The notes under the pieces are model-generated. The model was not told the origin of the DNA, did no database searches, and saw nothing but the letters and a program-made list of their open reading frames with translations. A program made the translations under genes and the position numbers. A stretch of 22,676 nt of DNA from a virus: IMG/VR virus record IMGVR_UViG_3300017751_000260, positions 1 through 22,676 of that record; one strand, written 5' to 3'. Shown in pieces: positions 5,795-22,605 of this stretch. Positions within the stretch are counted from its first letter, which is position 1, and every line of letters begins with the position of its first letter.

Positions 5795-6403
5795 TTATTT
5801 CATTACTTCGCTTTCTGTGAAATGGTTGCAACAAATCTCACAATAATATTTTGAATCACTAATCTCGTGTACATCTGTTTTGACCTCTACCATACAAGTG
5901 CTGCAATATCTTTCTTCTTGGTCTGCCTCTACAGAAGAATAAAAATCAGTTATACGTTTAGTATAGCTTGGTTTATAGTATTCGTTACGAAAGAAATTAT
6001 AAGGATAAGAGGAGCCTCTATAGTTCGTGCTTGGTCTCTCTTGCTTGTAACTTTGTATGCAGTTCATATGGTTTGAATATGGTCTTGTCTGTATAAAGTA
6101 TACCCAACATTTAATCTGACCTTTCTTGCGCTTAATCATTATCTCTTTACGTTTGTAGTGATAAGGGTGTCCTTCAAGTGAATCAAGATTTTTAAGTACG
6201 TTGTCGCTTACCTTATATATATGTACATCGACATTGTAGCCGCTACCTTTTACATCGTGTAGATAAGGAAGACCGCTTACCTCTAAAGGGTATTTATCAA
6301 GAGTAGTTCCCTTACCTACGTATCGTGAGCCGCTTAACATACTATTGTTAGAGTAACCTTTTTTAAGAGTACCATACACCGCTACAATATTGTCTTGTAA
6401 CAC
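5795..6403 (-). CDS. Gamma-glutamylcyclotransferase-like domain with C-terminal zinc-binding module
   Basis: Counted from the GTG at 6401-6403. The GGCT/AIG2 fold signature is clear: VAVYGTLKKG (7-16), YPL...GLPYL (39-48), and VDVHIYKVSDNVLKNLDSLEG with Glu77 as the expected acid/base, followed by HPYHYKRKE. These enzymes cleave gamma-glutamyl amides to release 5-oxoproline. Residues 110-160 are a Tyr/Asn/Ser-rich linker. Residues 166-195 carry Cys-x2-Cys (167, 170) and Cys-x2-Cys-Cys (188, 191-192), a likely zinc ribbon or treble clef. The frame is continuous with the class II amidotransferase upstream apart from one TGA at 6527-6529, so the native protein is probably a fusion of about 360 aa. 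A GTG restart is the alternative. Confidence 0.7.
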   Translation of the reverse strand: MLQDNIVAVYGTLKKGYSNNSMLSGSRYVGKGTTLDKYPLEVSGLPYLHDVKGSGYNVDVHIYKVSDNVLKNLDSLEGHPYHYKRKEIMIKRKKGQIKCWVYFIQTRPYSNHMNCIQSYKQERPSTNYRGSSYPYNFFRNEYYKPSYTKRITDFYSSVEADQEERYCSTCMVEVKTDVHEISDSKYYCEICCNHFTESEVMK

Positions 6404-6529
6404 ATTAGTCTTTGAATACCATACACCATCTTTTTGTGTCCAAAGATTTTTGTTATAGATTTGATATTGTCTATTGCGCTTGTTATAAGATACGAATCTA
6501 GAATCGTGCTGACCTAGAATTTCTCTTCA
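6404..6529 (-). pseudogene. In-frame bridge with TGA between the amidotransferase and cyclotransferase domains
   Basis: The TGA at 6529-6527 is the only stop between the class II amidotransferase start (6880) and the stop at 5795. The 41 codons after it read REILGQHDSRFVSYNK, a basic linker, then NLWTQKDGVWYSKTN. This is the typical last part of a class II amidotransferase-like Ntn fold (S-R-F strand and d-G-x-x-Y-S near the end), so the stop truncates a domain and does not separate two genes. TGA is a normal stop elsewhere (2505-2507, 13069-13071). It may be a nonsense mutation, assembly error, population variant or read-through site. The plus-one frame stops 12 codons after leaving the main frame, so simple frameshifting does not rescue it. 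Confidence 0.6.
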
Positions 6530-6880
6530 TTGGTGTCGTGGTCTGTGTCCTAGTTCATTAGCTAGCTGCTTACTATCACATAAATCTTTTGAGCCATAGC
6601 CTAGCAAAGTTCCATTATGCATTAGTAGTTCATTAGAGTTATTACCGCATTCAAATGGATGGGTGTTCTCTCTGTTAATCTTACCTTTAGTAGCATATCT
6701 GAAATGAGCGATGTATGGTCTGTCTGTATCTAGTACCGACCACTCTTTTGATTTATGATAGTTAACCTCGTTAGTATCTAGCCATATTACACCTAGTCCG
6801 TGAGGGTTTATTAAGGATGATGTTCGCAAAACTGATTGCGATACTTTCTTGTCTTTCGACTTTACAATTATTATACACAT
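6527..6880 (-). CDS. Class II glutamine amidotransferase-like domain (N-terminal part)
   Basis: Start chosen at ATG 6878-6880 so that Cys2 becomes the N-terminal nucleophile after Met removal (MCIIIVKSKD). A longer in-frame start at 6949 would lie inside the promoter at 6936-6967. Class II signatures: HFRYAT (59-64), NTHPF (72-75 and on), MHNGTL with the oxyanion Asn-Gly (87-92), and DSKQLANEL (102-110). The enzyme class hydrolyses glutamine, or a related amide, by an Ntn mechanism and passes ammonia to a partner. The frame stops at 117 aa by TGA, but the fold clearly continues beyond it into the cyclotransferase domain. The amidoligase gene lies just upstream, separated by a terminator and a repeat-rich promoter region. 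Confidence 0.7.
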   Translation of the reverse strand: MCIIIVKSKDKKVSQSVLRTSSLINPHGLGVIWLDTNEVNYHKSKEWSVLDTDRPYIAHFRYATKGKINRENTHPFECGNNSNELLMHNGTLLGYGSKDLCDSKQLANELGHRPRHQ

Positions 6881-6935
6881 AGTTTTTTTGTTTGTGAGGA
6901 GTAGATATTGTATCCGCTGACCTCTGATTATTACA

Positions 6936-6967
6936 CAAAGATAAGACATTAATTAGACATAGCCAAA
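6936..6967 (-). promoter_or_regulatory. Bacteroidota-type promoter, copy B
   Basis: On the minus strand, TTTG (6967-6964), a 20-nt spacer with ATGTCTAA and TAATGT, then TATCTTTG (6943-6936), a full consensus match. It lies 56 bp upstream of the amidotransferase ATG. Its close match to copy A at 4899-4930 suggests common control. Confidence 0.7.
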
Positions 6968-6994
6968 TGATATACACATTATTTTAGATATACT

Positions 6995-7027
6995 ATCGTA
7001 CCCAAAAAGATACGACATCGTACCCAA
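6995..7027. repeat. Direct repeat ATCGTACCCAA x2
   Basis: Exact 11-bp copies at 6995-7005 and 7017-7027, start to start 22 bp (about two helical turns), separated by AAAGATACGAC. They include TCGTA/TACGA half-sites like those of the GTCGTATACGAC palindromes. They begin about 30 bp upstream of the TTTG box of the promoter at 6936-6967. Confidence 0.6.
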
Positions 7028-7043
7028 CCTTGATTTTTCAAAA

Positions 7044-7070
7044 CATCAAACATCAAACATCAACATCAAA
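7044..7070. repeat. CATCAAA microrepeat, about 3.9 copies
   Basis: CATCAAA at 7044, 7051 and 7064, with a 6-nt copy CATCAA at 7058. Non-coding in all likelihood. Confidence 0.7.
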
Positions 7071-7117
7071 CAATTACCCGCATTGGGTATTGATTACCCC
7101 AAATGGGCATTCCTGCT

Positions 7118-7141
7118 TACCTGTTATTTTTGTTACAGGTA
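7118..7141. repeat. Inverted repeat TACCTGT/ACAGGTA
   Basis: 7-bp arms at 7118-7124 and 7135-7141 with a 10-nt T-rich loop. It can form a hairpin, or serve as a dimeric protein-binding site. Confidence 0.5.
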
Positions 7142-7174
7142 GTCAACTTTTCTGACTAGTCAACTTTTCTGACT
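7141..7174. repeat. Tandem 17-mer AGTCAACTTTTCTGACT x2
   Basis: Two exact adjacent copies (7141-7157, 7158-7174). Each unit is itself an inverted repeat (AGTCA/TGACT arms, 7-nt centre), giving four evenly phased half-sites. Confidence 0.75.
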
Positions 7175-7207
7175 GGCTGTCTGCTGGTGTCTGCTGGCTG
7201 TCTGCTG
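7175..7207. repeat. GGCTGTCTGCTG repeat, 21-bp period
   Basis: Exact 12-mers at 7175-7186 and 7196-7207, with a partial copy GTGTCTGCT between them. The GT/CT-rich composition differs sharply from the AT-rich surroundings. Confidence 0.6.
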
Positions 7208-7265
7208 TCGCTGTTAAATCTACCTAAGATTATGCAGCATAACTGCACAAAACTTTAATTTAGGG

Positions 7266-7292
7266 CAAAAAAAAAGAGCGCATAAGCGCTCC
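7266..7292 (-). terminator. Rho-independent terminator after the amidoligase gene
   Basis: On the minus strand, GAGCGC-TTAT-GCGCTC is followed by nine T. It lies 25 bp beyond the amidoligase stop. On the plus strand a shorter T-run (CCTTTT) follows the same stem, so it could also work weakly in reverse. Confidence 0.85.
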
Positions 7293-7316
7293 TTTTAATA
7301 TTAGTTTGCTGATAAA

Positions 7317-8408
7317 TCAACCAACCATTTCGCTGAATTTAACTTCACTTCTTTTCCACATTCTGTATGCTTTCTGAGTGAATAGTCTTTGTGCTATACC
7401 ATTCGATTCGTTATTATAATAAGAGTATATGAAAGGTATTACATTCTCATCCATTAAATTTTTAGTTAACATCTTATCAAATGATTTAGCTAGTTTAAAA
7501 AGCATATCTACTTTTGCAGCATCATTGTTATACATTCGCATTACAATTGGTCGTATACGACTATTAAAAGCATTTTTAGATATTAACGTTTTACTAGCTT
7601 GCGCGATTTCGTGCATTAAAGCGTATCGGTTTTTTAATTGATTTACGCTAGTTACTCTGCTCCATAATCTAAACTCTACTACTCCATGAGATTTCAACTG
7701 AATTGCATTATACTTGTTATCTCTCCTAGTGATAGCATCGGTAGGGTTAATTGGACAATTTATATTTCCTAGACAATATCTGTTAGCTAATCTCTTTCTG
7801 TTCATTGCATATACGATACCTAGATATGGTCTCATTGCATTTAAAAAATGTTTTGAGTCACCATAATCATTGCTAGAGATAGAAACGTGACCACCGCATT
7901 TGAATGCATTATTGTAAAAAGCATTACTACTAGAGAATTCTTCTTCAATAAAATATCTACTTTCGTGCATTAAATTAAAGATTTTGTTTCTCCATTTGCT
8001 AGATGGTATTAGCGGCAATATGTTTGTTATTGCTTCATATCCATCTGAGCCATTGTGAGCAACCGAACCATCATTTTCGATAGCGCTGAATAGTGTTGGG
8101 AATAAACCTATTAACGTTCTGTTACCGCTCAAAACCTCTCTAGATAGTGTGTTTTTCTCTATCTCAAAACCGATAGCAAATTTACTAGTATACACATTTT
8201 CTCCGCTTTCTAAAGTTCTAGTTATGTTTGTCTGAATTTGTTTTTTGTTCAGACCTTTTAAATCAATTTTGTATCTAGTAAAGTTTAACTTTGTACCGAT
8301 ACATCCTTGATGATAATGAGCTACTATATTTCTGCGCACTGTATCCCCTCTTTGATTAAGAGCGCTTGCGCTTTGCTGCTCATATTTTATACCGTTTAAT
8401 TTTGACAT
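7317..8408 (-). CDS. COOH-NH2 amidoligase-like enzyme (glutamine synthetase-like fold)
   Basis: 363 aa. Motifs in order match the putative amidoligase (Amidoligase_2) family: FAIGFEIEKN (77-86), ENDGS (111-115) followed by GYEAITNILPL (123-133), CGGHVSIS (171-178), R-L-A-N-R-Y-C-L-G-N (206-215) and VVEFRLWSR (243-251), the last carrying the conserved E-F-R. The family is related to glutamine synthetase/gamma-glutamylcysteine ligase and is predicted to join an amino group to a carboxylate using ATP. The N-terminal 75 and C-terminal 90 residues are extra. The gene follows the 215-aa hypothetical gene after a 27-bp gap and precedes a terminator. Across a control region lie amidotransferase and cyclotransferase domains, a combination fitting synthesis and trimming of gamma-glutamyl or peptide amides. 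Substrate unknown. The coding sequence contains one GTCGTATACGAC palindrome. Confidence 0.7.
   Translation of the reverse strand: MSKLNGIKYEQQSASALNQRGDTVRRNIVAHYHQGCIGTKLNFTRYKIDLKGLNKKQIQTNITRTLESGENVYTSKFAIGFEIEKNTLSREVLSGNRTLIGLFPTLFSAIENDGSVAHNGSDGYEAITNILPLIPSSKWRNKIFNLMHESRYFIEEEFSSSNAFYNNAFKCGGHVSISSNDYGDSKHFLNAMRPYLGIVYAMNRKRLANRYCLGNINCPINPTDAITRRDNKYNAIQLKSHGVVEFRLWSRVTSVNQLKNRYALMHEIAQASKTLISKNAFNSRIRPIVMRMYNNDAAKVDMLFKLAKSFDKMLTKNLMDENVIPFIYSYYNNESNGIAQRLFTQKAYRMWKRSEVKFSEMVG
7547..7565. promoter_or_regulatory. Palindrome TTGGTCGTATACGACTATT, copy 2 (inside the amidoligase gene)
   Basis: Exact 19-mer match to 4952-4970, although it encodes residues N-S-R-I-R-P-I (282-288) of the amidoligase. 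Conservation of a non-coding motif inside a coding region suggests a functional DNA site rather than protein constraint. Confidence 0.5.
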
Positions 8409-10166: not shown

Positions 10167-11816
10167 ATGAATCCACCAGTTGGAGGTTACTCTCCCAAAG
10201 ACCTTAAGTTTGGAACTCAAGGCAGAAACTCATTAATAAATGGAATAAGTAAAATTGCTGATGCTGTAAAAAGTACATTGGGTCCAAGAGGACATACTGT
10301 TCTTATTGAATCACCAAATCACACACAAGGAATTACTATAACGAAAGATGGAGTTACGGTTGCAAAAGCTGTAGACCTAATGCATCCTGTAGAAAATTTA
10401 GCAGTACGTATGATGAAAGAGGCTGCAGACAAAACAGCTACATCGGCTGGAGATGGAACCACAACAGCAATTGTATTGACAGAAGCTTTAGTTAAGTCTG
10501 GAAATTATTTAATTAAAGATACAGACAATAGAACAGAAATATTAAAGATTATTAATAATGAAGTAAATCCAATTATTACTCAACTTAAGAGTATGTCAAA
10601 GCCAATATCTAAAAGAAGGCTTAAGGATGTTGCTATAATTTCTGCTAACGGAGACAAAGAGATTGGTAATACTATTGCTAAAACATACAACACAGTTGGT
10701 AAAACAGGAATAGTAACTGTAGAACGTTCACAGACTAGCGAGACGTATAGTGATATTACTAACGGTATTAAAGTTGAAAGAGGATACAATTCTCCATTAT
10801 TTATTAATGACCAGAAAAAAGATGAGTGTGTTCTTGAAGATACTTATATATTAGTGTCTGACGCATCGGTTGATAATATATTAAACATTGAGAATATTTT
10901 AAAACCAATAATTCAAGAAAGAAAAAAACTATTACTTATTTGTCCTTGTAGTGATAATGTAATTAATACATTAGCTGCTAACGTAGTTAAGAACGGACTT
11001 AAGTTATGTAATATTAATCCCCCACAGTTTGGATATAAGCAGCACGAGTTAATGCAAGATATTGCAATATCAGTTGGCGCTACATACTTTTCAGAAAAGA
11101 CTGGTGATGATTTAAGTTTAATAAACTTTAATGATTTGGGTCACGCAGCCAAGGTGATAGTTGGACGTGACTCAACAGTCATAATAAAAGATAAAGATGT
11201 GGATGAAGATGTGGTTAATAAAAGAGTAGAGGAGCTATGGGATGCTCATAAAAATGCTACTTCTAAAACAGATAAAGACTTTATATCTACACGAATCGCA
11301 TCTTTGACAGGTGGAATAGGTGTTATTAATGTAGGGGGTCAAACTGAAATTGAACAAAAAGAACTTTATGATAGAGTAGACGATGCTGTATGTGCTGTTC
11401 GCTCTGCTTTATTAGAGGGGATACTGCCTGGGGGTGGAACTGCCTTAAACAATATCGCTAAAGCATATAGGGCTATAGCTGAAAATAATAAAGACGAGGA
11501 TTATAAACCACTTGAAAATTCAAAAAAAATTGCTTACGCAATTTTAGGACAAGCATTAACAGCTCCTATAAATCAAATCTTAAGAAACGCAGGTCTACAA
11601 TATGATGAAATATATAAAGATATTGTAAATCCTGCACACGGTTATGATGTGAAAAATGAATTGTATGGTGACTTATTAGATATGGGGGTTATTGACCCTA
11701 TGAAAGTTACAAAGCACGCATTACAAAACGCAGTATCTGTGGCTACAACTATACTAAGTACTAATGCTATAATCACTATGGCAAGAACATTTGAATCTGA
11801 TGAAGCCAATAAATAA
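10167..11816 (+). CDS. groEL: Phage-encoded chaperonin GroEL
   Basis: 549 aa, near the bacterial length (about 545). Nucleotide-site motifs are intact: STLGPRG (36-42), TKDGVTVAK with Asp61 (E. coli Asp52), GDGTTTA with Asp96 (E. coli Asp87), and VDDAV followed by LEGILPGGGTAL (the E. coli Asp398 region). The ending SVATTILSTNAIITM matches the equatorial C-terminal helix, but the usual Gly-Gly-Met tail is missing (ends FESDEANK), and an N-terminal extension of about 9 residues is present. It likely folds virion proteins in the host cytoplasm, with the small co-chaperonin encoded next. It overlaps groES by 17 bases. The order groEL-groES is opposite to the usual bacterial operon. It is quite diverged from bacterial sequences, suggesting long residence in phages. 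Confidence 0.93.
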   Translation: MNPPVGGYSPKDLKFGTQGRNSLINGISKIADAVKSTLGPRGHTVLIESPNHTQGITITKDGVTVAKAVDLMHPVENLAVRMMKEAADKTATSAGDGTTTAIVLTEALVKSGNYLIKDTDNRTEILKIINNEVNPIITQLKSMSKPISKRRLKDVAIISANGDKEIGNTIAKTYNTVGKTGIVTVERSQTSETYSDITNGIKVERGYNSPLFINDQKKDECVLEDTYILVSDASVDNILNIENILKPIIQERKKLLLICPCSDNVINTLAANVVKNGLKLCNINPPQFGYKQHELMQDIAISVGATYFSEKTGDDLSLINFNDLGHAAKVIVGRDSTVIIKDKDVDEDVVNKRVEELWDAHKNATSKTDKDFISTRIASLTGGIGVINVGGQTEIEQKELYDRVDDAVCAVRSALLEGILPGGGTALNNIAKAYRAIAENNKDEDYKPLENSKKIAYAILGQALTAPINQILRNAGLQYDEIYKDIVNPAHGYDVKNELYGDLLDMGVIDPMKVTKHALQNAVSVATTILSTNAIITMARTFESDEANK

Positions 11817-12057
11817 ATATATAGCAATAAATATTGTTGAGGAAGAAATAGTAACAGACTCTGGATTAATTTTATCTGATAAAGATGTTGATGAACTAAG
11901 ATATAGAAAAGCAATAGTTATTGCACCAGGCACTGAGGTTAAAAATATAAACAAAGGAGATACTATATATTTTGATTCACGAACTGGCTATACAATGTTA
12001 ATTGACAACAAGCCTTGCACCATTATTTCTGAGAGAGACGTTGTTGTAGTTTTATAG
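11800..12057 (+). CDS. groES: Phage-encoded co-chaperonin GroES
   Basis: 85 aa from ATG 11800; a TTG three codons upstream is less likely. The mobile loop is recognisable as EEEIVTDSGLILSD (residues 14-27), with GLIL in place of the usual G-I-V-L that contacts GroEL. It is followed by the beta-barrel segments KAIVIAPG, INKGDTIYFD and TIISERDVVVVL. It is slightly shorter than E. coli GroES (97 aa). It overlaps groEL, so translational coupling is likely. Its 3' end overlaps the convergent winged-helix-like gene by 35 bases. It caps the phage, or possibly the host, GroEL ring. Confidence 0.88.
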   Translation: MKPINKYIAINIVEEEIVTDSGLILSDKDVDELRYRKAIVIAPGTEVKNINKGDTIYFDSRTGYTMLIDNKPCTIISERDVVVVL

Positions 12058-14449: not shown

Positions 14450-15265
14450 ATGTATTCAAAAATTCAAGTAAATACACCGTCTGCAATACCAGTTGTAAAA
14501 TCAGACACATATAATATCCCTAATCCAGGAAGATTAGTTTTTCAAGGAACAGATTCTTCAGCTGCAACTGGAGTTATAGTAGACACATCTGCTTGTTCTA
14601 ACTCTTTTACAAGTCAAACAACCTCTGCAGGAGGTGGGAATCTTTTAGTAGACTCAAGAACTGGACTAGACTTTCAAAAAAACAGTTACATTTTAGATGC
14701 CGATTCTCAAACAGGGGTAGCTCAACAAGTATTTGCTATTCAAGTAGGTAATCAAGTAGAAGAAACATCTGGTAATACTACAGGTCACGTAGTTACAGTT
14801 GATAGCGCAACCACTCTTACTTTAGATAATACTGTTGGTGCTGGTAATAATGTGCCTTATATATTAAGACAAAACGGATTTATAAACAGATTAGATATTA
14901 ATGTTGGTTATTTAGTTTATAACTTAACTGATTTAACGCAAAATTTTGTTACAGCAGTAACTAATGATGCTCAGTTAAGTGTTGGAGGAAGTATAATGGC
15001 GGCAAATGATGTTTATCAAATATATTCACAAGATGCAGCAGCATTAAGTGTTAATAGTGCTAATAGTGCAGCTTTAATATATGTAGGTGGGGGTGGTACT
15101 ATATCTTCATTTGGAGAACAGTTTGTAAATATTAAAGTAACCACTGCAAACAATCAAGACATTACATTTGAAAATTTTCCAGTAGGACAGTATTTGCCAG
15201 TACAGTGTGTTAAAGTGTGGGCAACTGGAACAGATGCTGATGTTAAACCTATTGCAATCTTTTAA
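14450..15265 (+). CDS. Putative virion structural protein
   Basis: 271 aa. No signal peptide and rich in Ser/Thr/Asn/Gly/Val with strand-like repeats, as in beta-structured virion proteins. A central GHVVTVDSATTLTLDNTVGA motif resembles phage surface beta-domains. The C-terminal 60 residues (FVNIKVTTANNQDITFENFP, YLPVQCVKVWATGTDADVK) match the compact beta domain that often ends head-decoration or fibre-associated proteins. It sits between the small basic genes and the lysis cassette. The exact role (decoration, tail or adaptor) cannot be fixed. Confidence 0.55.
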   Translation: MYSKIQVNTPSAIPVVKSDTYNIPNPGRLVFQGTDSSAATGVIVDTSACSNSFTSQTTSAGGGNLLVDSRTGLDFQKNSYILDADSQTGVAQQVFAIQVGNQVEETSGNTTGHVVTVDSATTLTLDNTVGAGNNVPYILRQNGFINRLDINVGYLVYNLTDLTQNFVTAVTNDAQLSVGGSIMAANDVYQIYSQDAAALSVNSANSAALIYVGGGGTISSFGEQFVNIKVTTANNQDITFENFPVGQYLPVQCVKVWATGTDADVKPIAIF

Positions 15266-15271
15266 TTGAAA

Positions 15272-15436
15272 ATGGATAGCGACATAAAAGACACACTCGA
15301 GGTAATAATACCTAATGCTGGAGCTATAGGCTTATCCATAACTGATTGTAATGAGTATCTTACTTTTATATCTTTAGTCCTTGCAATATCGATTTCACTT
15401 TTCAAACTTTACAATTGGAAAAGTAAAAACAAGTAA
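15272..15436 (+). CDS. Small membrane protein (54 aa), possible holin-like
   Basis: Soluble N-terminal 28 residues (MDSDIKDTLEVIIPNAGAIG), then one transmembrane segment (YLTFISLVLAISISLFKLY, 29-47) and a basic tail YNWKSKNK. First gene of the lysis block. The size and topology fit small phage membrane proteins (holin, antiholin or accessory). No family assigned. Confidence 0.55.
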   Translation: MDSDIKDTLEVIIPNAGAIGLSITDCNEYLTFISLVLAISISLFKLYNWKSKNK

Positions 15437-15450
15437 CATCAATATAGTTG

Positions 15451-15669
15451 ATGAAATCACCAATAGATTTTAAAGATTTTGCTGCAAACCCAGTTACTGG
15501 ATTGCTGTTTTTTTGTTTAATTGCTATTGGTTATTTATATATAGATAATAAAACTACTTTAACAAATCAAATTAAAACTTTACAAGAAGAAGTTATTGTT
15601 TTAAAAAGTGATTATAAAAAGTTGAATGATAAATTTATAGAAACTTTACAAGGAATTAATGAAAATTAA
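15451..15669 (+). CDS. Membrane-anchored coiled-coil protein, i-spanin-like
   Basis: 72 aa from ATG 15451 (the preceding TTG is ignored). One N-terminal membrane segment (NPVTGLLFFCLIAIGYLYI, about 14-32) is followed by a coiled-coil (TNQIKTLQEEVIVLKSDYKK and onward). Its 3' end overlaps the lipoprotein gene by 11 bases. An inner-membrane coiled-coil protein paired with an overlapping lipoprotein gene is the classical i-spanin/o-spanin arrangement of Gram-negative phages. Assignment rests on topology and order. Confidence 0.55.
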   Translation: MKSPIDFKDFAANPVTGLLFFCLIAIGYLYIDNKTTLTNQIKTLQEEVIVLKSDYKKLNDKFIETLQGINEN

Positions 15670-16102
15670 ATGGTATATATTGTTATTTATGTTCTCCTCT
15701 TGTTTTCACTCAGAAGATTCTACGGAAAAGATAGAATCTTTTAACGTTAATACCGATAGTTTATTTAATGCAGCAGATAGTGCTGTACAATTAGTCAATA
15801 ATAATAGAAAACAAAAAGTATTATTAGAGCAAGACTTATGGAGAAAAAAAAGAGATATTAAAGTTATAGAACAAAAATATACTGATAGCATTTGGAATCT
15901 TAGCAATATGTATGAATTAAATACTATAAAATTAGATAGTGATAGTGTACAGTATAATTATAAAATTATATTAAGAGAAATAGTTGATACTGTAAGAGTG
16001 ACTGTTACTGATTCTATTTGTGATGTTTGTAAAACAAGACAAAACAAAAAAGATAATAGATGGTACAAGAAAACATTTAGATGGATTAAAAAAACATTAT
16101 AA
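15659..16102 (+). CDS. Lipoprotein, o-spanin-like
   Basis: 147 aa. MKIKWYILLFMFSSC is a type II signal peptide with lipobox F-S-S-C (lipidated Cys15), followed by Ser/Asp/Glu-rich sequence and a helical region. It ends in a basic CKTRQNKKDNRWYKKTFRWI segment. It is longer than typical Rz1-type o-spanins. It overlaps the i-spanin-like gene upstream and shares a one-base overlap (TAATG) with the amidase gene. A virion or periplasmic lipoprotein with another role is possible. Confidence 0.5.
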   Translation: MKIKWYILLFMFSSCFHSEDSTEKIESFNVNTDSLFNAADSAVQLVNNNRKQKVLLEQDLWRKKRDIKVIEQKYTDSIWNLSNMYELNTIKLDSDSVQYNYKIILREIVDTVRVTVTDSICDVCKTRQNKKDNRWYKKTFRWIKKTL

Positions 16103-16515
16103 TGAGACAAATTAAAAAAATAGTTATTCACTGTTCTGCAACGCCTAGAAATAAAAATTTTAATGCAGAAGATATAAGAGATTGGCACGTTAAAGGAAAT
16201 GGATGGGATGATATTGGTTATCATTATGTTGTTCTTTTAGATGGTTCTATGCAATATGGAAGAATGGTAGATAAGTATGGCGCTCACGTTAGTGGTCATA
16301 ATTATGATAGTATAGGTATTTGTTACATAGGAGGAATGGACAAAGAAATGGAAGAATGGGAAGACACAAGAACTGACAAGCAAAAAGAGTCTTTACTCTT
16401 ATTAATAAAAACATTAAAAAAGTTTCATCCAAAAGCTAAAGTAGTAGGACACAGGGATTTATCAAAAAAAGCTTGTCCAAGTTATGATGCTTTAGATGAA
16501 TATAAAAATATATAA
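16102..16515 (+). CDS. Endolysin: N-acetylmuramoyl-L-alanine amidase (T7 lysozyme type)
   Basis: 137 aa Amidase_2/PGRP domain with all zinc ligands in place: His10 in IVIHCSATP, His117 in VVGHRDL and Cys125 in KKACPSYD. GYHYVV (39-44) supplies the catalytic Tyr and K123 the T7-like Lys. Cleaves the amide between muramic acid and L-Ala in peptidoglycan at lysis. No signal peptide, so a holin is needed for release; one follows three bases later. T7 lysozyme also inhibits its RNA polymerase, but no such polymerase is seen here. Confidence 0.9.
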   Translation: MRQIKKIVIHCSATPRNKNFNAEDIRDWHVKGNGWDDIGYHYVVLLDGSMQYGRMVDKYGAHVSGHNYDSIGICYIGGMDKEMEEWEDTRTDKQKESLLLLIKTLKKFHPKAKVVGHRDLSKKACPSYDALDEYKNI

Positions 16516-16517
16516 CT

Positions 16518-16916
16518 ATGGGTATTTGGAAAAAAATTTTTGGAGGAGCAGCTAATGATGTAATTGGTAATGTAGGTAATTTAGTTGATAAATTTGTACA
16601 AACTCCAGACGAACGGTCGTTGTTTAAAAAACAAATGACTAATATACTAATTGATGCTGAAGCTGAAATAGAAAAAAATATTACAGAAAGATGGAAAGCT
16701 GATATGACTAGTGATAACAAGCTTTCAAAATCAGTACGCCCTTTAGTTTTAATTTTCTTAATAGTGTCTACAATTATATTAATTTTTATTGATTCTGGTT
16801 TTATTATCTTTGCAGTAGATAATGAGTGGAAAGATTTACTAAAAATGTTGTTAATGACAACAGTAGCAGCATATTTTGGTGGACGCTCATATGAGAAGGG
16901 TAAAAGAATAAAATAA
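16518..16916 (+). CDS. Putative holin (3TM type)
   Basis: 132 aa. The amphipathic N-terminal half ends in ITERWKADMTSDNKLSKSVR, the usual lead-in of GTA/3TM-type phage holins (W-x-A-D-M-x-S-D-x-x-L-S-K-x-x-R-P). Membrane segments follow: PLVLIFLIVSTIILIFIDSG (75-94), FIIFAV (95-100) and LLKMLLMTTVAAYFGG (107-122), then a basic C-terminus (RSYEKGKRIK). It should form inner-membrane holes that release the amidase. Confidence 0.75.
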   Translation: MGIWKKIFGGAANDVIGNVGNLVDKFVQTPDERSLFKKQMTNILIDAEAEIEKNITERWKADMTSDNKLSKSVRPLVLIFLIVSTIILIFIDSGFIIFAVDNEWKDLLKMLLMTTVAAYFGGRSYEKGKRIK

Positions 16917-16922
16917 AAATCA

Positions 16923-17645
16923 ATGGCTAAGATAAGTACATATCCTATTACATCACCTGTAGTAGACGCAGATAAGTGGATTGGAACAGATTCAAAAAGT
17001 TTAAATCAAACTAAAAACTTTACTGCGAAAGATGTAGCTATTTATCTTAATAGTAAATCTAAAATAGAATCAGATTCTTTAAGGTATAAGTTTCAAAACT
17101 GGGTGACTGGGGATGTTAGAGAAAACGGAACTATTTCTTTTGCTACTAGTAATATTGGTAATTCAGTTAATTTTAGTTCACTAAGTACTTTTATGTTAAG
17201 TAAGTTTAGTAAAGCTTTAGTTGATGTTCAGTCATTTTATACAAATCCATTAATAGGTTCTCAAGTAATGATTTCTGAAGCAGCTAATGTTTCACAATTT
17301 GGGATATATTCCTGGAACTCTGCGGCATTAAATGCTGGAGATGCTAACTTTAGTGACATTGGAGTTACATATATTAACGGTAATGGTACCTTAAAAGCAA
17401 ATCAAGATTATTTTATATCTTTGCTGCAATATGATACTGCGGCTGCGTCTGGTGATAAAAACTTTACAGAAACCGTTTCCTTATCACAAACGTGGACAGT
17501 AAATCATAATTTAAATAAATATCCTGCAGTTTCAGTTTTAGATACAGCAGGTACAGAAATATACGGTCAGATTGACTATGTTAGTTTGACACAAGTAGTA
17601 ATAACATTTGTACTACCAGTCGCAGGAAGAGTGACTTGTAATTAA
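16923..17645 (+). CDS. Putative tail fibre or receptor-binding protein
   Basis: 240 aa. N-terminal MAKISTYPITSPVVDADKWI is a conserved phage fibre start. The middle domain (80-175) is mixed beta. The C-terminal part QTWTVNHNLNKYPAVSVLDT, then GQIDYVSLTQVVITF resembles the compact tip domain that follows fibre repeats in many phages. Followed by two longer fibre-like genes, so this may be a short adaptor or alternative tip. Confidence 0.6.
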   Translation: MAKISTYPITSPVVDADKWIGTDSKSLNQTKNFTAKDVAIYLNSKSKIESDSLRYKFQNWVTGDVRENGTISFATSNIGNSVNFSSLSTFMLSKFSKALVDVQSFYTNPLIGSQVMISEAANVSQFGIYSWNSAALNAGDANFSDIGVTYINGNGTLKANQDYFISLLQYDTAAASGDKNFTETVSLSQTWTVNHNLNKYPAVSVLDTAGTEIYGQIDYVSLTQVVITFVLPVAGRVTCN

Positions 17646-17663
17646 TTAATAAAGAAAAAAACA

Positions 17664-19835
17664 ATGGCAATAAAATTTTTAAGTAATGTAGACATACAAG
17701 GGAGTTTAACATTAAACGATAATCAATTAACAAACTTTGTAGTTGAAAACTTATCATCTGACCCTTCATTTGCAAATTCATTTGTTGGTCGACTATATTA
17801 CAATAACTCAACAACACCTGGTACATTAAAAGTCTGCGTTGAAGTAAATAGTGGTACAAATACTGCAACATATGTAAGTCTAGATAGTACAGATGGAGTA
17901 AATACATTTACAAATTCTAATGGAACTTATGTTTCGGCTGGAACAGAAAACTCAAGTGCAACAGGTGATGTAACGATGGGTACTATAGATTTATCAGCGG
18001 CTGATGGTAATACTGCTACAAATGCAACAAGATTTTTATCTAAAGATAACAAATGGGAAGTTCCAATATATACTACTGATTCTGGAGGAACAGTTACAGG
18101 AGTAAGCGGTACCGCTCCAATAGTATCAGATGGTTCTTCAACAACTCCCACAATTTCTATTTCAAATATGGGCGCAGCATCAGCTGGTTCTGGTGGTAGT
18201 GCTGGAGCTGTTCCTGCACCAGTTGCTGGAGACCAAGTTAAGTTCTTAAGAGGTGATGGTACATTTGCTACTCCTTCTGGTTCATATACATCTTGGACAA
18301 TTGCAAGTGATGGTGTATCTGGTACTAATACGGTATCTGACGGACAAACAGCAACATTTACTGGAGGAACTTACATTACTACTGCAACATCTACTAGAAC
18401 AACAACTTTTAATCACGATACAACATCAAGAACTGACACTACGTCTACAGACACAGTGGGTTCTGGAGCATCATTTACTAAAGTAGACTCTATAACTACA
18501 AACGGAACTGGTCACGTTACAGCAATAAATGTAGAGACTATAACAATGGATGCTTTTGATAATTATGATTCTTGGACATTAGCAGGTGACGGTGGTACTT
18601 CACAAACAATATCAAGTAGTAATACCGCAACTATTGCAGGTGGTACAAACATTAGTACTACAGCAAGCGCTACAGACACATTAACAGTAAACCTAGATGA
18701 TAGTATTACTTTATCTGGTGATATAACAATACAAGGTGGGGACATAACTACATCTGCAGCAACAACAACATTTACTATAAAAGATGATGAATCTTCAGCT
18801 TTAACTTTCTCTTCTTCTGGCTCAGCAAACTTATTAAAATTAGATACTACTGCAAGTGAAGGAGTTAGTGTTACAGGATTATTTAGTGTTTCTGGAGCTG
18901 CTACTTTAACTGGTGGGTTTACTGCTGGTGCAGATTCAGCAATGGGTACTAATAAAATTACTGGACTTAAGACTGCTACTAACACTGATGAAGCTACTAA
19001 CTTAGGTCAAGTACAAGCTTTAGTAGCTGGAGTTGGAGTTTTTCAAGGAGCATACGATGCAACTAATAACAATCCAGCATTATCTGGAGGTAGTAACGTT
19101 GCTCTTACAACTGGAGATTACTTTGTTGTATCAGTAGATGGTACTAATGCAGTATTGGGAGTACTTGAAGTTGGTGATTTAATATTTGCTAATAATGATA
19201 TTACAGCAGGTTCTTCTCCAAATATTTCTAATTATACTGTAGTACGTCAAGATGCAAACATTGCAGGAAGCGGTTCAACTGATGCTGGAACAGAAAAAGG
19301 AGTTTCTGGATTTGATTCAGCTTTCTTTGATGTTTCAGTTAATGGTTGGGTTCAAATAAAAGATGACAGTATAGCTTTAGGAACAAAAACAACTGGTAAT
19401 TATACTGAATCTGTAGCTGCAAGTTCTACTAACAATAGATTAGGTATTGCAGTTAGTGGAGCAGCTGGTGAAGGACAAGATGCGGTAGTTGGTTTAAACA
19501 TTACTGGACAAACTGATTTAGGTTCTAGTGTAGCAGATGCTGATGAGTTCTTAGTTTATGATGCATCAGCAACGACTAATAAAAAAGTAGCTTATTCTGC
19601 AATTGCTGATAGTGTAGTTTCTTCTAATAGTTTCACTGATACATTCCCTAGTACTAACGCTTCTACTTGGACAGTAACTCACGCTTTAGGAACAAATGTA
19701 ATGGTTCAAACGTGGTTAGAAGCAACTGGTCAAGCTGTTTATATTGATTTTGCTAGAACTAGCTCTACTGTAATTACCTTTACAGCATCGTCTACTGTAG
19801 CTGCTGATACTATTAGAGTACTTGTTACTAAGTAA
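17664..19835 (+). CDS. Long tail fibre-like protein 1
   Basis: 723 aa, starting MAIKFLSN, the same first eight residues as the next gene. Highly Ser/Thr/Gly/Asn-rich with repeated beta motifs (for example GSGASFTKVDSITTNGTGHV, LSGDITIQGGD, MGTNKITGLKTATNTDEATN). The C-terminus TWTVTHALGTNVMVQTWLEA...FARTSSTVITFTASS resembles the tip domain at the end of the 240-aa gene. Likely an elongated trimeric receptor-binding fibre. No chaperone peptidase (S74) domain was seen. Confidence 0.7.
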   Translation: MAIKFLSNVDIQGSLTLNDNQLTNFVVENLSSDPSFANSFVGRLYYNNSTTPGTLKVCVEVNSGTNTATYVSLDSTDGVNTFTNSNGTYVSAGTENSSATGDVTMGTIDLSAADGNTATNATRFLSKDNKWEVPIYTTDSGGTVTGVSGTAPIVSDGSSTTPTISISNMGAASAGSGGSAGAVPAPVAGDQVKFLRGDGTFATPSGSYTSWTIASDGVSGTNTVSDGQTATFTGGTYITTATSTRTTTFNHDTTSRTDTTSTDTVGSGASFTKVDSITTNGTGHVTAINVETITMDAFDNYDSWTLAGDGGTSQTISSSNTATIAGGTNISTTASATDTLTVNLDDSITLSGDITIQGGDITTSAATTTFTIKDDESSALTFSSSGSANLLKLDTTASEGVSVTGLFSVSGAATLTGGFTAGADSAMGTNKITGLKTATNTDEATNLGQVQALVAGVGVFQGAYDATNNNPALSGGSNVALTTGDYFVVSVDGTNAVLGVLEVGDLIFANNDITAGSSPNISNYTVVRQDANIAGSGSTDAGTEKGVSGFDSAFFDVSVNGWVQIKDDSIALGTKTTGNYTESVAASSTNNRLGIAVSGAAGEGQDAVVGLNITGQTDLGSSVADADEFLVYDASATTNKKVAYSAIADSVVSSNSFTDTFPSTNASTWTVTHALGTNVMVQTWLEATGQAVYIDFARTSSTVITFTASSTVAADTIRVLVTK

Positions 19836-19866
19836 AAAAATATTACCTTTATAGAAAAATTAAACA

Positions 19867-22605
19867 ATGGCGATTAAATTCCTTAGTAACGTAGTAGGTA
19901 GTGGGGAGATTGAAGGTAATACATTAGACGTAGTAGGAGCAGCAACTTTTCAAGGTGTAGGAGACACCGCATTAATTTTATCTTCTGGTGATGTTATTGT
20001 CGGAGGTTCACACGGTAACTCTGGTCAAGTACTTACTTCCAACGGAGAAAATAATTCTTTAAGCTGGACAGATAAAACTACCAATTCAAATGATTTTTTA
20101 ACTGGATTATCTTTTAATACTGGTAGTGGTGTTTTAACTGCAACAGTAGCAAATCAAAATAATCCAACGGTAGATTTAGATGGTAGATATTTACAATTAG
20201 GTGGGGGAACAATGACAGGAAATATTGTTATTGCAAGTTTATCAACTACTTCTGCTACTAGTTTTATAGGTTCTGTATCTAATCCAATAGTAAATATTTA
20301 TGCTACAAGTGTAAGTGGTCAATTAAAAGGAACTATCGCTTCAACTGTGACTGGTACTACTCAATCACAAGATGATAATTCAACTAAAATTGCAACTACT
20401 GCTTATGTAGATACTGCAGTGTCTGAAATTCCTGCTGGAGACGATACAACATATGACTTAACCACATTACCTAGTGGCACTGGCTTAAGATTAGACCCTT
20501 CGAGTGGTAGTAATGATGATATAACATTTACTGGAACTGGTGGTTTGACTATTACACGAAACAGTCCAACACAATTAACTTTTAATGCTCCAGCGGCTTC
20601 ATCAACACCTACTTTAGCTCAAGTAACTACTGCTGGTTCTACAACTACAAATGCAATTTCAGTAGGAACAATTACAAATAATGGAAGTATAACTACAACA
20701 ACTTCAGCAAGTGTTGGAACAAATCTTACTGTATTAGGTAACTCATCATTAGTAAGTCTAGATGTAGGTGGTGGTTTTGGCTCTACTGGAGTTACAATTA
20801 GTTCTACTGGAAATATATCAGCTAATGGGACAATTACAGGAAACTTAACTGGAAATGTTACTGGTAATGTAACAGGAGATGTAACTGGAGATGTTACTGG
20901 AAATGTTACTGGTAATGTAACTGGAAATTTAACTGGTGATGTTTCTGGAGATTTAAATGGTACGATAAACACATCAACAACAGCAGCAACACAATCACAA
21001 GGAAATAACTCTACTAAAGTAGCAACAACAGCTTATGTGGATACAGCAGTAGGAAATATTCCATCTGGACTTTCATTTGAAGGGAATTGGAATGCTAGTA
21101 CTGACTCACCATCTTTATCTGGTACTACTCCAGCTAATGGAGTTTTTTATATTGTGTCCGTTGCTGGTAGTACAAGTTTAAGTGGGATAACAGATTGGGT
21201 AGTAGGTGATTGGGCGGTATATGTATCTGACGGTGCTGGAACAGATGCTTGGCAAAAAATTGACAACACTTCTACTTTAGGAGGCGCTGGAACATCTACT
21301 AAGATTGCTAAATGGAGTGGAACTACTACTCTTGCAGATAGTACTATTACTGATGACGGTACAGATGTTAGTTTAACTGGTGACTTAACTATTGGTACCG
21401 ATTTAACATTGACTGGAGCTATGGCTAGTGACATAGATATGGGTACTAATAATATTACCAACTTAACAACTGTAAATAATAATAGTACTAGTTATCACTT
21501 CTTAGTTATGAATGGTACTAACGATTACAATGGTCCTGTAAAAGCAAGGACTAAGTCACAAGTTCTAAGTGATATAGGTGCAGGAACAGGTGATGGTACA
21601 GTTACAAGTGTAGCGGCTTTAACATTAGGAACTACTGGAACAGATTTATCAAGTACAGTTAGTGGTGGTTCTGGAGCGGCTGTTATTACTTTAAATGTTC
21701 CTACAGCTTCAGCAGCGAATAGAGGTGCTTTATCTTCAGCAGATTGGTCGACATTTAATAGTAAAACATCTAACACAGGTACTATAACAAGTGTAAGTTC
21801 GACTTCTCCTATTAATGGAAGTGCAAATTCTGGTGGAGTAACTATAAGTATTGATACAGCAGATACTAATACAACAGGTGCTTTAACATCTACAGACTGG
21901 AACACCTTTAATGGTAAGATGCCGCTGACTAATATTAGTTCTAATTATGACGCCACTGGTTCAAAAGCATTTCTTGCAGTAGGTCTTAATGGAAATAGTA
22001 ATGCACTAACATATTCTACGGATATGTATTATGTAGCTGGTTCACCATCAGAATTAGTTGCTCCAAAACTTGGAGTTACAAATGGAATAACTGGAGCTTC
22101 ATTAACTATTTCTGGAACTTCAGCTTTAGACACTATAACTTCTGATAAAGACATAACTTTTACTTCTGGTACAAGTGGCGGTACAGGTTTAGTATATGAC
22201 GCTACTTTAGGTACTGATGGAACATATAGTGGGGAGGTTGCTTATTTTGGAAATTCAACATCTACAAACCAAGGACGTTTATATCAATTGCAAAGTACTG
22301 GAGGATGGGCATATGCTGATGCCGATTCAGCAGCTGGCTCTTCTGGATTATTAGCAGTCGCATTGGGTACAAATTCAGATGATGGAATGTTACTGAGAGG
22401 ATTTATTAGAGATTCAGATTATTCATCTATAGACGGAACAGCAGGTGCTAAACTTTACGTAAATACTCAAACTACTAATAATAGTTTTACTGCAGATATA
22501 CCTACAGGTAGTGGTGATATTGTTCGTATTGTAGGGTATATTACAACTTCTAACTCCAAAACTATTTATTTCTGTCCAGATAATACATTTATAGAACTCG
22601 CTTAA
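19867..22605 (+). CDS. Long tail fibre-like protein 2
   Basis: 912 aa, also starting MAIKFLSN but with different codons. Contains NSTKIATTAYVD and NSTKVATTAYVD, a common phage fibre repeat; a 10-unit GNVT-type 4-aa repeat (about 325-365); and paired GALSSADWSTFNSK and GALTSTDWNTFNGK modules. The C-terminal about 120 residues (LLAVALGTNSDDGMLLRGFI, then GAKLYVNTQTTNNSFTADIP, SGDIVRIVGY, TIYFCPDNTFIEL) form a distinct tip domain known from marine phage fibres. Probably receptor-binding; relation to fibre 1 may be alternative or assembled at another site. Confidence 0.7.
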   Translation: MAIKFLSNVVGSGEIEGNTLDVVGAATFQGVGDTALILSSGDVIVGGSHGNSGQVLTSNGENNSLSWTDKTTNSNDFLTGLSFNTGSGVLTATVANQNNPTVDLDGRYLQLGGGTMTGNIVIASLSTTSATSFIGSVSNPIVNIYATSVSGQLKGTIASTVTGTTQSQDDNSTKIATTAYVDTAVSEIPAGDDTTYDLTTLPSGTGLRLDPSSGSNDDITFTGTGGLTITRNSPTQLTFNAPAASSTPTLAQVTTAGSTTTNAISVGTITNNGSITTTTSASVGTNLTVLGNSSLVSLDVGGGFGSTGVTISSTGNISANGTITGNLTGNVTGNVTGDVTGDVTGNVTGNVTGNLTGDVSGDLNGTINTSTTAATQSQGNNSTKVATTAYVDTAVGNIPSGLSFEGNWNASTDSPSLSGTTPANGVFYIVSVAGSTSLSGITDWVVGDWAVYVSDGAGTDAWQKIDNTSTLGGAGTSTKIAKWSGTTTLADSTITDDGTDVSLTGDLTIGTDLTLTGAMASDIDMGTNNITNLTTVNNNSTSYHFLVMNGTNDYNGPVKARTKSQVLSDIGAGTGDGTVTSVAALTLGTTGTDLSSTVSGGSGAAVITLNVPTASAANRGALSSADWSTFNSKTSNTGTITSVSSTSPINGSANSGGVTISIDTADTNTTGALTSTDWNTFNGKMPLTNISSNYDATGSKAFLAVGLNGNSNALTYSTDMYYVAGSPSELVAPKLGVTNGITGASLTISGTSALDTITSDKDITFTSGTSGGTGLVYDATLGTDGTYSGEVAYFGNSTSTNQGRLYQLQSTGGWAYADADSAAGSSGLLAVALGTNSDDGMLLRGFIRDSDYSSIDGTAGAKLYVNTQTTNNSFTADIPTGSGDIVRIVGYITTSNSKTIYFCPDNTFIELA
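20839..20961 (+). repeat. 12-bp period repeat coding for (Gly-Asn/Asp-Val/Leu-Thr)n
   Basis: About 10 units of GGA-AAT-GTT-ACT type codons with silent variation between units. Encodes a regular GN(V/L)TGDVT run, likely a beta-helical spacer in the fibre shaft. Slippage at such repeats can change fibre length. Confidence 0.85.

Follow-up and report, generated by a model that had tools for sequence, protein, structure and literature searches.

A conserved in-frame UGA and a constrained 3' sequence suggest programmed readthrough in a fused amidotransferase-cyclotransferase gene of a phage family with a putative amidoligase

The IMG/VR virus record IMGVR_UViG_3300017751_000260 was analyzed over its complete length of 22,676 bases (hereafter the window; the record is perhaps itself a fragment), with emphasis on a minus-strand locus encoding an amidoligase-like protein followed by a class II glutamine amidotransferase (GATase) and a gamma-glutamylcyclotransferase (GGCT). 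The latter two domains occupy a single reading frame, the sole interruption of which is a TGA at codon 118. The conservation of this UGA, together with a nearly frozen block of sequence directly 3' of it, provides strong comparative evidence for site-specific recoding. The locus is quite probably a two-protein amide module in which the second protein is completed by programmed UGA readthrough, most likely with tryptophan inserted, assisted by a cis element of 33 nucleotides (nt). An earlier reading of the same DNA (the original prediction) had recognized the enzymes, but not what is unusual about the locus: the UGA inside the gene, the fusion of the two domains and the frozen 3' sequence.

A fused GATase-GGCT protein interrupted by a single UGA

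The features of the interrupted gene in the window are as follows.

5795-6880, minus strand: GATase-GGCT-zinc-ribbon frame, 361 residues if codon 118 is read, with one TGA inside
6401-6880, minus strand: class II glutamine amidotransferase domain, residues 1-160, with the UGA within it
6071-6385, minus strand: gamma-glutamyl(amine) cyclotransferase domain, residues 166-270, with candidate catalytic Glu236 in DSLEGHP
5831-5905, minus strand: C-terminal zinc-ribbon-like CxxC...CxxC, residues 326-350, putatively metal-binding
6527-6529, minus strand: in-frame UGA, codon 118
6494-6529, minus strand: UGA plus 33 nt of nearly invariant 3' sequence, candidate readthrough element
6498-6517, minus strand: weak hairpin CUAGGUC-AGCAC-GA(U)UCUAG inside the candidate element, suggestive only

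The GGCT domain was recognized by the Pfam family GGACT (PF06094, E 3.5e-20; E 1.1e-19 with the read-through protein), and the GATase domain by PF13230 (E 1.3e-06, above the family cut-off). A fold search with the GATase part returned GFAT matches, while the nearest solved structures of the cyclotransferase part (3jud, 1vkb and 3jub) were gamma-glutamylamine cyclotransferases and AIG2-like proteins, a likeness that fits gamma-glutamyl amides as the type of substrate. Class II GATases depend on an N-terminal Cys and on residues of the glutamine pocket, and a conserved Glu has a catalytic role in the GGACT family. In the fusion alignment, GATase residues Cys2, R61, N89-G90 and D102 and GGCT residue E236 were invariant. 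The Cys columns of the zinc ribbon were nearly so, the ribbon being absent from two homologues (L025 and L026).

The three enzyme domains, the ligase by fold and motifs, were thus found on the minus strand at the place given in the original prediction. Its division of GATase and cyclotransferase into separate units was not upheld, as one frame split by a single TGA spans both. The GATase open reading frame (ORF) of that prediction accordingly stops within the GATase domain. The model of the GATase domain places strands at residues 128-133, 138-142, 148-150 and 153-155, and the terminated product of 117 residues would be without these last strands. Homologues without the internal stop are single proteins, e.g. 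UOF82491.1 of MW202828 (405 residues). Among 80 genome-contig loci examined as cellular relatives there was one whole-fusion match, L238, on a contig in a Cytophagales metagenome-assembled genome, with an uninterrupted frame and Trp at the key codon. At a Desulfogranum locus (L243) a longer stretch matched portions of the two domains, and the other 78 loci matched GGCT with little or no GATase.

Distribution of the UGA among related phages

Relatives were gathered by searching IMG/VR with the fusion alignment, and the best 80 of 378 loci, some of them near copies, were kept. Codon 118 was TGA in 17 of the 80 loci (11 distinct genes) and TGG, encoding Trp, in 63, and no other in-frame stop was present across the aligned region of the 80 loci. 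A TAA counted as an in-frame stop in G017 (L021) was rejected, since the protein there is shorter and ends at this codon. The distant homologue L025, which lies outside the 80-locus set, has Ile at the position of codon 118. Some of the TGA loci were nearly identical to the window phage, and others were contigs sharing only 52-57% identity with it by local alignment, or 57-60% in another alignment. When 74 distinct proteins were placed in a tree, a single branch (support 93/91) set the 10 with TGA apart from the others.

Nucleotide constraint 3' of the UGA

Constraint at the nucleotide level was evaluated across the 11 distinct UGA-clade coding sequences. At codons +1 to +11, six of the eight degenerate columns with an invariant residue used a single codon, compared with 0 to 30% in the other bins. 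Codon identity between the two halves of the UGA clade averaged 0.80 per column over the same codons, against 0.404 expected from codon use. Furthermore, at codons +1 to +12, UGA pairs with 50-68% protein identity gave 0.95 in the block versus 0.484 in the rest of the gene (24 pairs), whereas TGG pairs gave 0.47 versus 0.443 (1061 pairs).

The exact block pattern occurred in 20 viral contigs of IMG/VR, all with TGA, and the same 20 were recovered when TGA was not required; exact pattern scans of this kind miss members with a changed block. Seventeen of these contigs were the TGA loci of the 80-locus set and three carried further fusion genes with TGA. Where relatives have TGG in this gene, the block was not kept as a unit. 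In all 11 aligned sequences, folding predicted a hairpin that starts 9 nt 3' of the UGA and has 7 pairs and a single bulged U. We infer that the block stimulates readthrough, and it may act by sequence rather than structure.

It is unlikely that the 33 nt are instead a separate DNA element, such as an operator or homing site, with the UGA passed by leaky background readthrough; this explanation overlaps the proposed one, as readthrough would still occur. Such an element would suit the CTAG-N12-CTAG arrangement and the lack of a demonstrably stable RNA fold, but not a block that begins exactly at the UGA, that accompanies TGA in every contig bearing it even when TGA is left out of the search, and that is not preserved whole where the same gene has TGG.

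Selection downstream of the UGA

Sequence comparisons indicate that the protein past the UGA stays under purifying selection, also ahead of any shared start codon. In the window clade, synonymous to nonsynonymous differences over the 41 codons from the TGA to a GTG at 6403 were 4:1, 4:2 and 6:1 in three pairs, and omega was 0.12-0.19 in the downstream frame past this GTG. In the other half of the UGA clade, codons +13 to +45, just past the element, had synonymous divergence (dS) of 0.59-1.18 and nonsynonymous divergence (dN) of 0.04-0.07 in three pairs. The first frame-0 start codon after the UGA was at +42, +42, +35, +43, +28, +42, +3 and +28 in eight sequences. As no position is shared, the constrained stretch has no common start for separate translation.

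These results bear on the possibility of a split gene, in which the UGA would be a true stop between a 117-residue GATase fragment and a separately initiated GGCT, the two perhaps reassembling, with the block serving re-initiation or as an internal promoter. An ORF of 202 residues is available from the GTG at 6403, and TAGATTTG, found at the block end in several sequences, resembles the Bacteroidota -7 box (TAnnTTTG). A split gene is nonetheless quite unlikely, given the missing shared start, the protein constraint between the UGA and any start, and a break that falls inside the GATase domain. The TTTG of the putative promoter is likewise not kept, being TTCG in the window clade and TTCT in L142.

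Use of UGA elsewhere in the genomes

In seven UGA-clade records (the window, G001, G021, G023, G026, G027 and G028) the amidoligase gene ends in UGA; in the last five, the gene was named by position and length, and the ends are those of called ORFs. In these five records, frames run on for 0 to 53 codons past other TGA ends and for 244 to 279 codons past the GATase TGA, and in the window the GATase frame runs on for 243 codons. A genome-wide assignment of UGA to Trp (code 4) would make UGA common in genes and absent as a stop, and this pattern was not observed. A tRNA scan returned one tRNA-Met in L211 and one unassigned tRNA in L047. When the genes of G021 were compared with 7 other UGA-clade and 5 TGG-clade records for possible trans factors, 8 UGA-only ORFs without a known name were flagged.

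That UGA is an ordinary Trp codon in the host or phage in general, through code 4 or an ambiguous code, is very unlikely. TGA is a rare stop in the window clade (4/30, 3/40 and 4/31 called genes), and a second TGA lies inside a structural gene of G001. Against this, UGA-clade genomes end other genes in TGA (7/58 in G021, the GATase one included), Trp is encoded by TGG 56-192 times per UGA-clade record, no UCA tRNA was present in the records scanned, which are mostly fragments, and the frozen synonymous sites would be left unexplained. The structural gene in question (L037:13815-14744, minus strand) encodes a protein of 309 residues with TGA at codon 85 and 224 open codons after it, and was considered and rejected as a second readthrough gene. 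Of the 81 records compared, G001 alone has this TGA; its nearest relatives (97%) carry TTA, and the TGA is treated as private variation or error.

Decoding of the UGA by selenocysteine insertion, or A-to-I editing of the mRNA from UGA to UGG, is highly improbable. The element lies directly 3' of the UGA, where the bacterial selenocysteine insertion sequence (SECIS) is located, and editing would restore exactly the Trp of the family. However, the homologues carry Trp rather than Cys, no SelB-type hairpin pairing was seen under general SECIS rules, and the UGA lacks the UACG motif associated with editing in bacteria. An Rfam search gave no match at the UGA site, and its two sub-threshold matches at the terminator-like hairpin listed below were taken as chance. 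The stretch AGGUCAGCAC, likened to the SelB-binding loop of E. coli fdhF, was dropped as a selenocysteine signal for the same reason of Trp in the homologues and because no matching stem was seen. Finally, a decaying pseudogene or assembly error would account for a stop codon within a domain, and has a negligible probability in view of the many contigs and samples, the purifying selection past the stop and the absence of a frameshift.

Observations that weigh against readthrough

Several observations count against programmed readthrough or reduce the weight of the comparisons that favor it. A single origin of the UGA seems likely, which leaves no independent origins to compare. All 24 UGA pairs straddle one deep split and are not independent, 22 of the 1061 TGG pairs reach the mean UGA-pair excess, and 131 of 100,000 random column sets within the gene reach the excess at codons +1 to +11; the first codons of the gene are also as constrained as the element. 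The hairpin never varies and shows no covariation in the 11 aligned sequences, and in the five sequences folded it was no stabler than shuffles (z -1.56 to +0.82). The failure to find a Trp or suppressor tRNA, itself a point in favor of programmed readthrough, comes from scanned phage records that are mostly fragments. G001 has a second long TGA-broken frame, private to it, and the ligase of the module is unrecognized by Pfam. Readthrough is here a prediction from sequence comparison.

The amidoligase-like protein and its neighborhood

Read along the minus strand, the locus consists of a gene at 9083-8436, the amidoligase-like gene at 8408-7317, a terminator-like hairpin, a repeat-bearing leader and the GATase-GGCT frame at 6880-5795. 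The features outside the fusion gene are as follows.

7317-8408, minus strand: amidoligase-like protein with a glutamine-synthetase (GS) fold, 363 residues
8436-9083, minus strand: conserved gene directly upstream of the amidoligase gene
7267-7296, minus strand: terminator-like hairpin and U-run, seen in the sequence 3' of the amidoligase gene
6986-7027, minus strand: pair of putative operators in the GATase gene leader, as direct repeats 22 nt apart

The putative ligase had no match to any Pfam family. PF12224 (Amidoligase_2) matched 0 of 20 aligned ligase family members at E<=1, and its family cut-off was not reached. A PHROG named 'amidoligase enzyme' was matched by 1 of the 20 members (E 0.00082). 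An AlphaFold2 model of the ligase (pLDDT 76.9, pTM 0.83) was used in fold searches. All of the best 50 matches listed were glutamine-synthetase or GCS-type folds, the top structure being YbdK 1r8g (Z 8.7), with Z of at least 8 for 3 chains only among the matches listed. Foldseek likewise gave GS/GCS-type top matches, two of them at E<=0.001 (best E 7.2e-4). Across the 20 aligned homologues, E111, D113, G123, E125, CGGH171-174, E245 and R247 were invariant and E82/E84 nearly so, and the ligase motifs that had been described as intact are conserved in this set. Comparison of the ligase family profile by hhalign was weak at best against RIO-1_13 (E 0.057), RIO-1_10 (E 0.61) and phiEco32 gp86 (E 0.0044), and BLASTP against the ligase of phage C75C1 gave no match. 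The assignment as an amidoligase is accordingly putative, and rests on fold, motifs and synteny rather than sequence search. In phage C75C1, an independent relative, the same fusion is accompanied by a true PF12224 amidoligase (E 3.5e-30), which speaks for the GS-fold protein occupying the position of the amidoligase.

A profile of the ligase placed the amidoligase upstream of the fusion, on the same strand, in 71 of the 80 loci, and the 9 loci without a ligase match have 121 to 1,929 nt of upstream sequence. Co-occurrence in related phages, set beforehand as a refutation test, thus holds in these 71. Among neighbor clusters in 76 loci, the gene upstream of the ligase was present in 62, a DnaA-C-like gene in 69, an exonuclease in 62 and GroEL in 32; clusters took their names from similar window genes, the DnaA-C match falls short of the Pfam cut-off, and flanks were often too short to include GroEL. 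As the wider gene block is conserved, the amidoligase module is a core feature of this family of tailed phages and no stray gene. In the window these neighbor genes adjoin a divergent GroEL-GroES pair, and the arrangement suggests an early, replication-linked operon.

GroEL (PF00118, E 9.2e-60) and GroES (PF00166, E 1.7e-10) are encoded at 10167-12057 and diverge from the amidoligase operon. Repeats abound in the GATase gene leader (6980-7210), which has a 17-nt tandem repeat, CTGGCTGTCTGCTG repeats and a pair of 20-nt repeats lying 22 nt apart. Amidoligase homologues in L020, L021, L023, L025 and L026 have long N-terminal extensions, often acidic and aromatic, near the GATase-GGCT gene, and in MW202828 (L035:11245-13009) a far longer open frame, of 574 residues, has the amidoligase at its C-terminal end. 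The right end of the window (14450-22605) contains large repetitive tail-fibre-like genes, with a PHROG tail-fibre match for 14450-15265 (E 9.5e-07).

Proposed function of the module

Under the proposed scheme, the GS-fold amidoligase would make amide bonds using ATP, and the GATase-GGACT-zinc-ribbon protein would supply or remove amide nitrogen from glutamine and release gamma-glutamyl amides as 5-oxoproline. The ribosome would read the UGA as Trp at a set rate through the host tRNA-Trp, with the 33 nt 3' of it acting as a cis element that lowers termination or favors decoding. Termination would yield a 117-residue GATase fragment and readthrough the full enzyme, so that readthrough would set the dose of the bond-cutting enzyme apart from that of the bond-making one. 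The UGA may thereby keep the fused enzyme low or tie it to the state of the host.

The earlier suggestion that the phage makes or removes an amide-linked group is partly supported, in that domains, fold and synteny agree with a ligase, amidotransferase and cyclotransferase set that could form and trim amide bonds. Nothing pointing to DNA modification turned up, no test aimed at it having been made. By analogy with a suggestion for podoviruses (PMC5498523), the target would most likely be the host cell wall, perhaps against superinfection. A bolder extension, which we advance tentatively and would not yet favor, is that the 36-nt block represents a new type of bacterial recoding signal, compact, mostly sequence-specific and directing Trp at UGA. 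The dose of the 'eraser' would then be tied to RF2, tRNA-Trp or the level of tryptophan, while the 'writer' is made freely from the preceding gene.

If readthrough is confirmed, the locus would provide a conserved, testable readthrough site in an enzyme of a double-stranded DNA (dsDNA) phage, for which TGG homologues supply natural controls and the 33 nt a defined candidate signal, and a route to how bacterial ribosomes pass UGA without a special tRNA. It would also warn that gene callers split such proteins, as in the window, and offer a handle on the role of the amidoligase cassette, as the bond-cutting enzyme would have its dose controlled separately.

Comparison with known systems

As a set of enzymes, the module is a version of a cassette already known; the finding proper is the conserved UGA with the frozen block that follows it. 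A cassette of amidoligase, GATase and GGCT was reportedly described by Iyer et al. in 2009. As in phages phiEco32 (EU330206) and RIO-1 (KC751414), a GS-like ligase, a class II GATase and an AIG2-type cyclotransferase lie close together. The phiEco32-type cassette encodes GATase and GGCT in separate genes and includes further ligases, whereas the two domains are here fused with a zinc ribbon. RimK-type ATP-grasp and PF14395 profiles matched 0 of 5 family records in a weak search, as PF14395 also missed RIO-1 and RimK stayed below the cut-off in phiEco32 and RIO-1. In phiEco32-like podoviruses the three enzymes have been termed a 'peptidoglycan modification cassette' (PMC5498523), and the suggestion of cell-wall modification by phiEco32 is repeated elsewhere (PMC11318856, PMC10580990). 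In bacteria, ligases of GCS2 size adjoin a GATase-like or Aig2-family cyclotransferase gene (PMC2588565), and the present module shares with these loci the pairing of a carboxylate-amine ligase with a cyclotransferase; those genes are bacterial, and neither fusion nor internal stop is described for them there. The closest parallels are phages C75C1 (OQ984151) and MW202828, which have the same GATase-GGCT fusion downstream of an amidoligase and, unlike the window, TGG at the key codon.

Stimulation of viral readthrough by a 3' element is said to be covered by Firth et al. (2011), and reassignment in crAss-like phages is reportedly genome-wide, with TAG read as Gln by means of suppressor tRNAs. 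Among the matches listed from open-licence PubMed Central, searched by titles and abstract starts and hence weak evidence, no dsDNA-phage readthrough case of this kind was present. According to PMC5009743, no RF2 gene is controlled by same-frame UGA readthrough, and in one phage paper 'stop codon readthrough' denotes a -1 frameshift (PMC3091744). Stop-codon reassignment in crAss-like phages (PMC9523058) resembles the present case in that a stop is read as sense, here by prediction, and differs in that a single UGA site is involved here and no tRNA was found in the scanned, mostly fragmentary records. Readthrough in murine leukaemia virus (PMC5009743) likewise involves a cis element directly 3' of the stop, here a candidate; it takes place on eukaryotic ribosomes, and the hairpin predicted here was not stabler than shuffled sequences in the five cases folded. 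Stop readthrough was first found in Qbeta (PMC8310308), the coat gene of which shares with the present gene an in-frame UGA and a longer readthrough product, here predicted, in a bacterial virus. Qbeta is an RNA phage that extends a coat protein, whereas the present case concerns an enzyme of a dsDNA phage, with Trp at the corresponding position of homologues and a frozen block of sequence 3' of the UGA.

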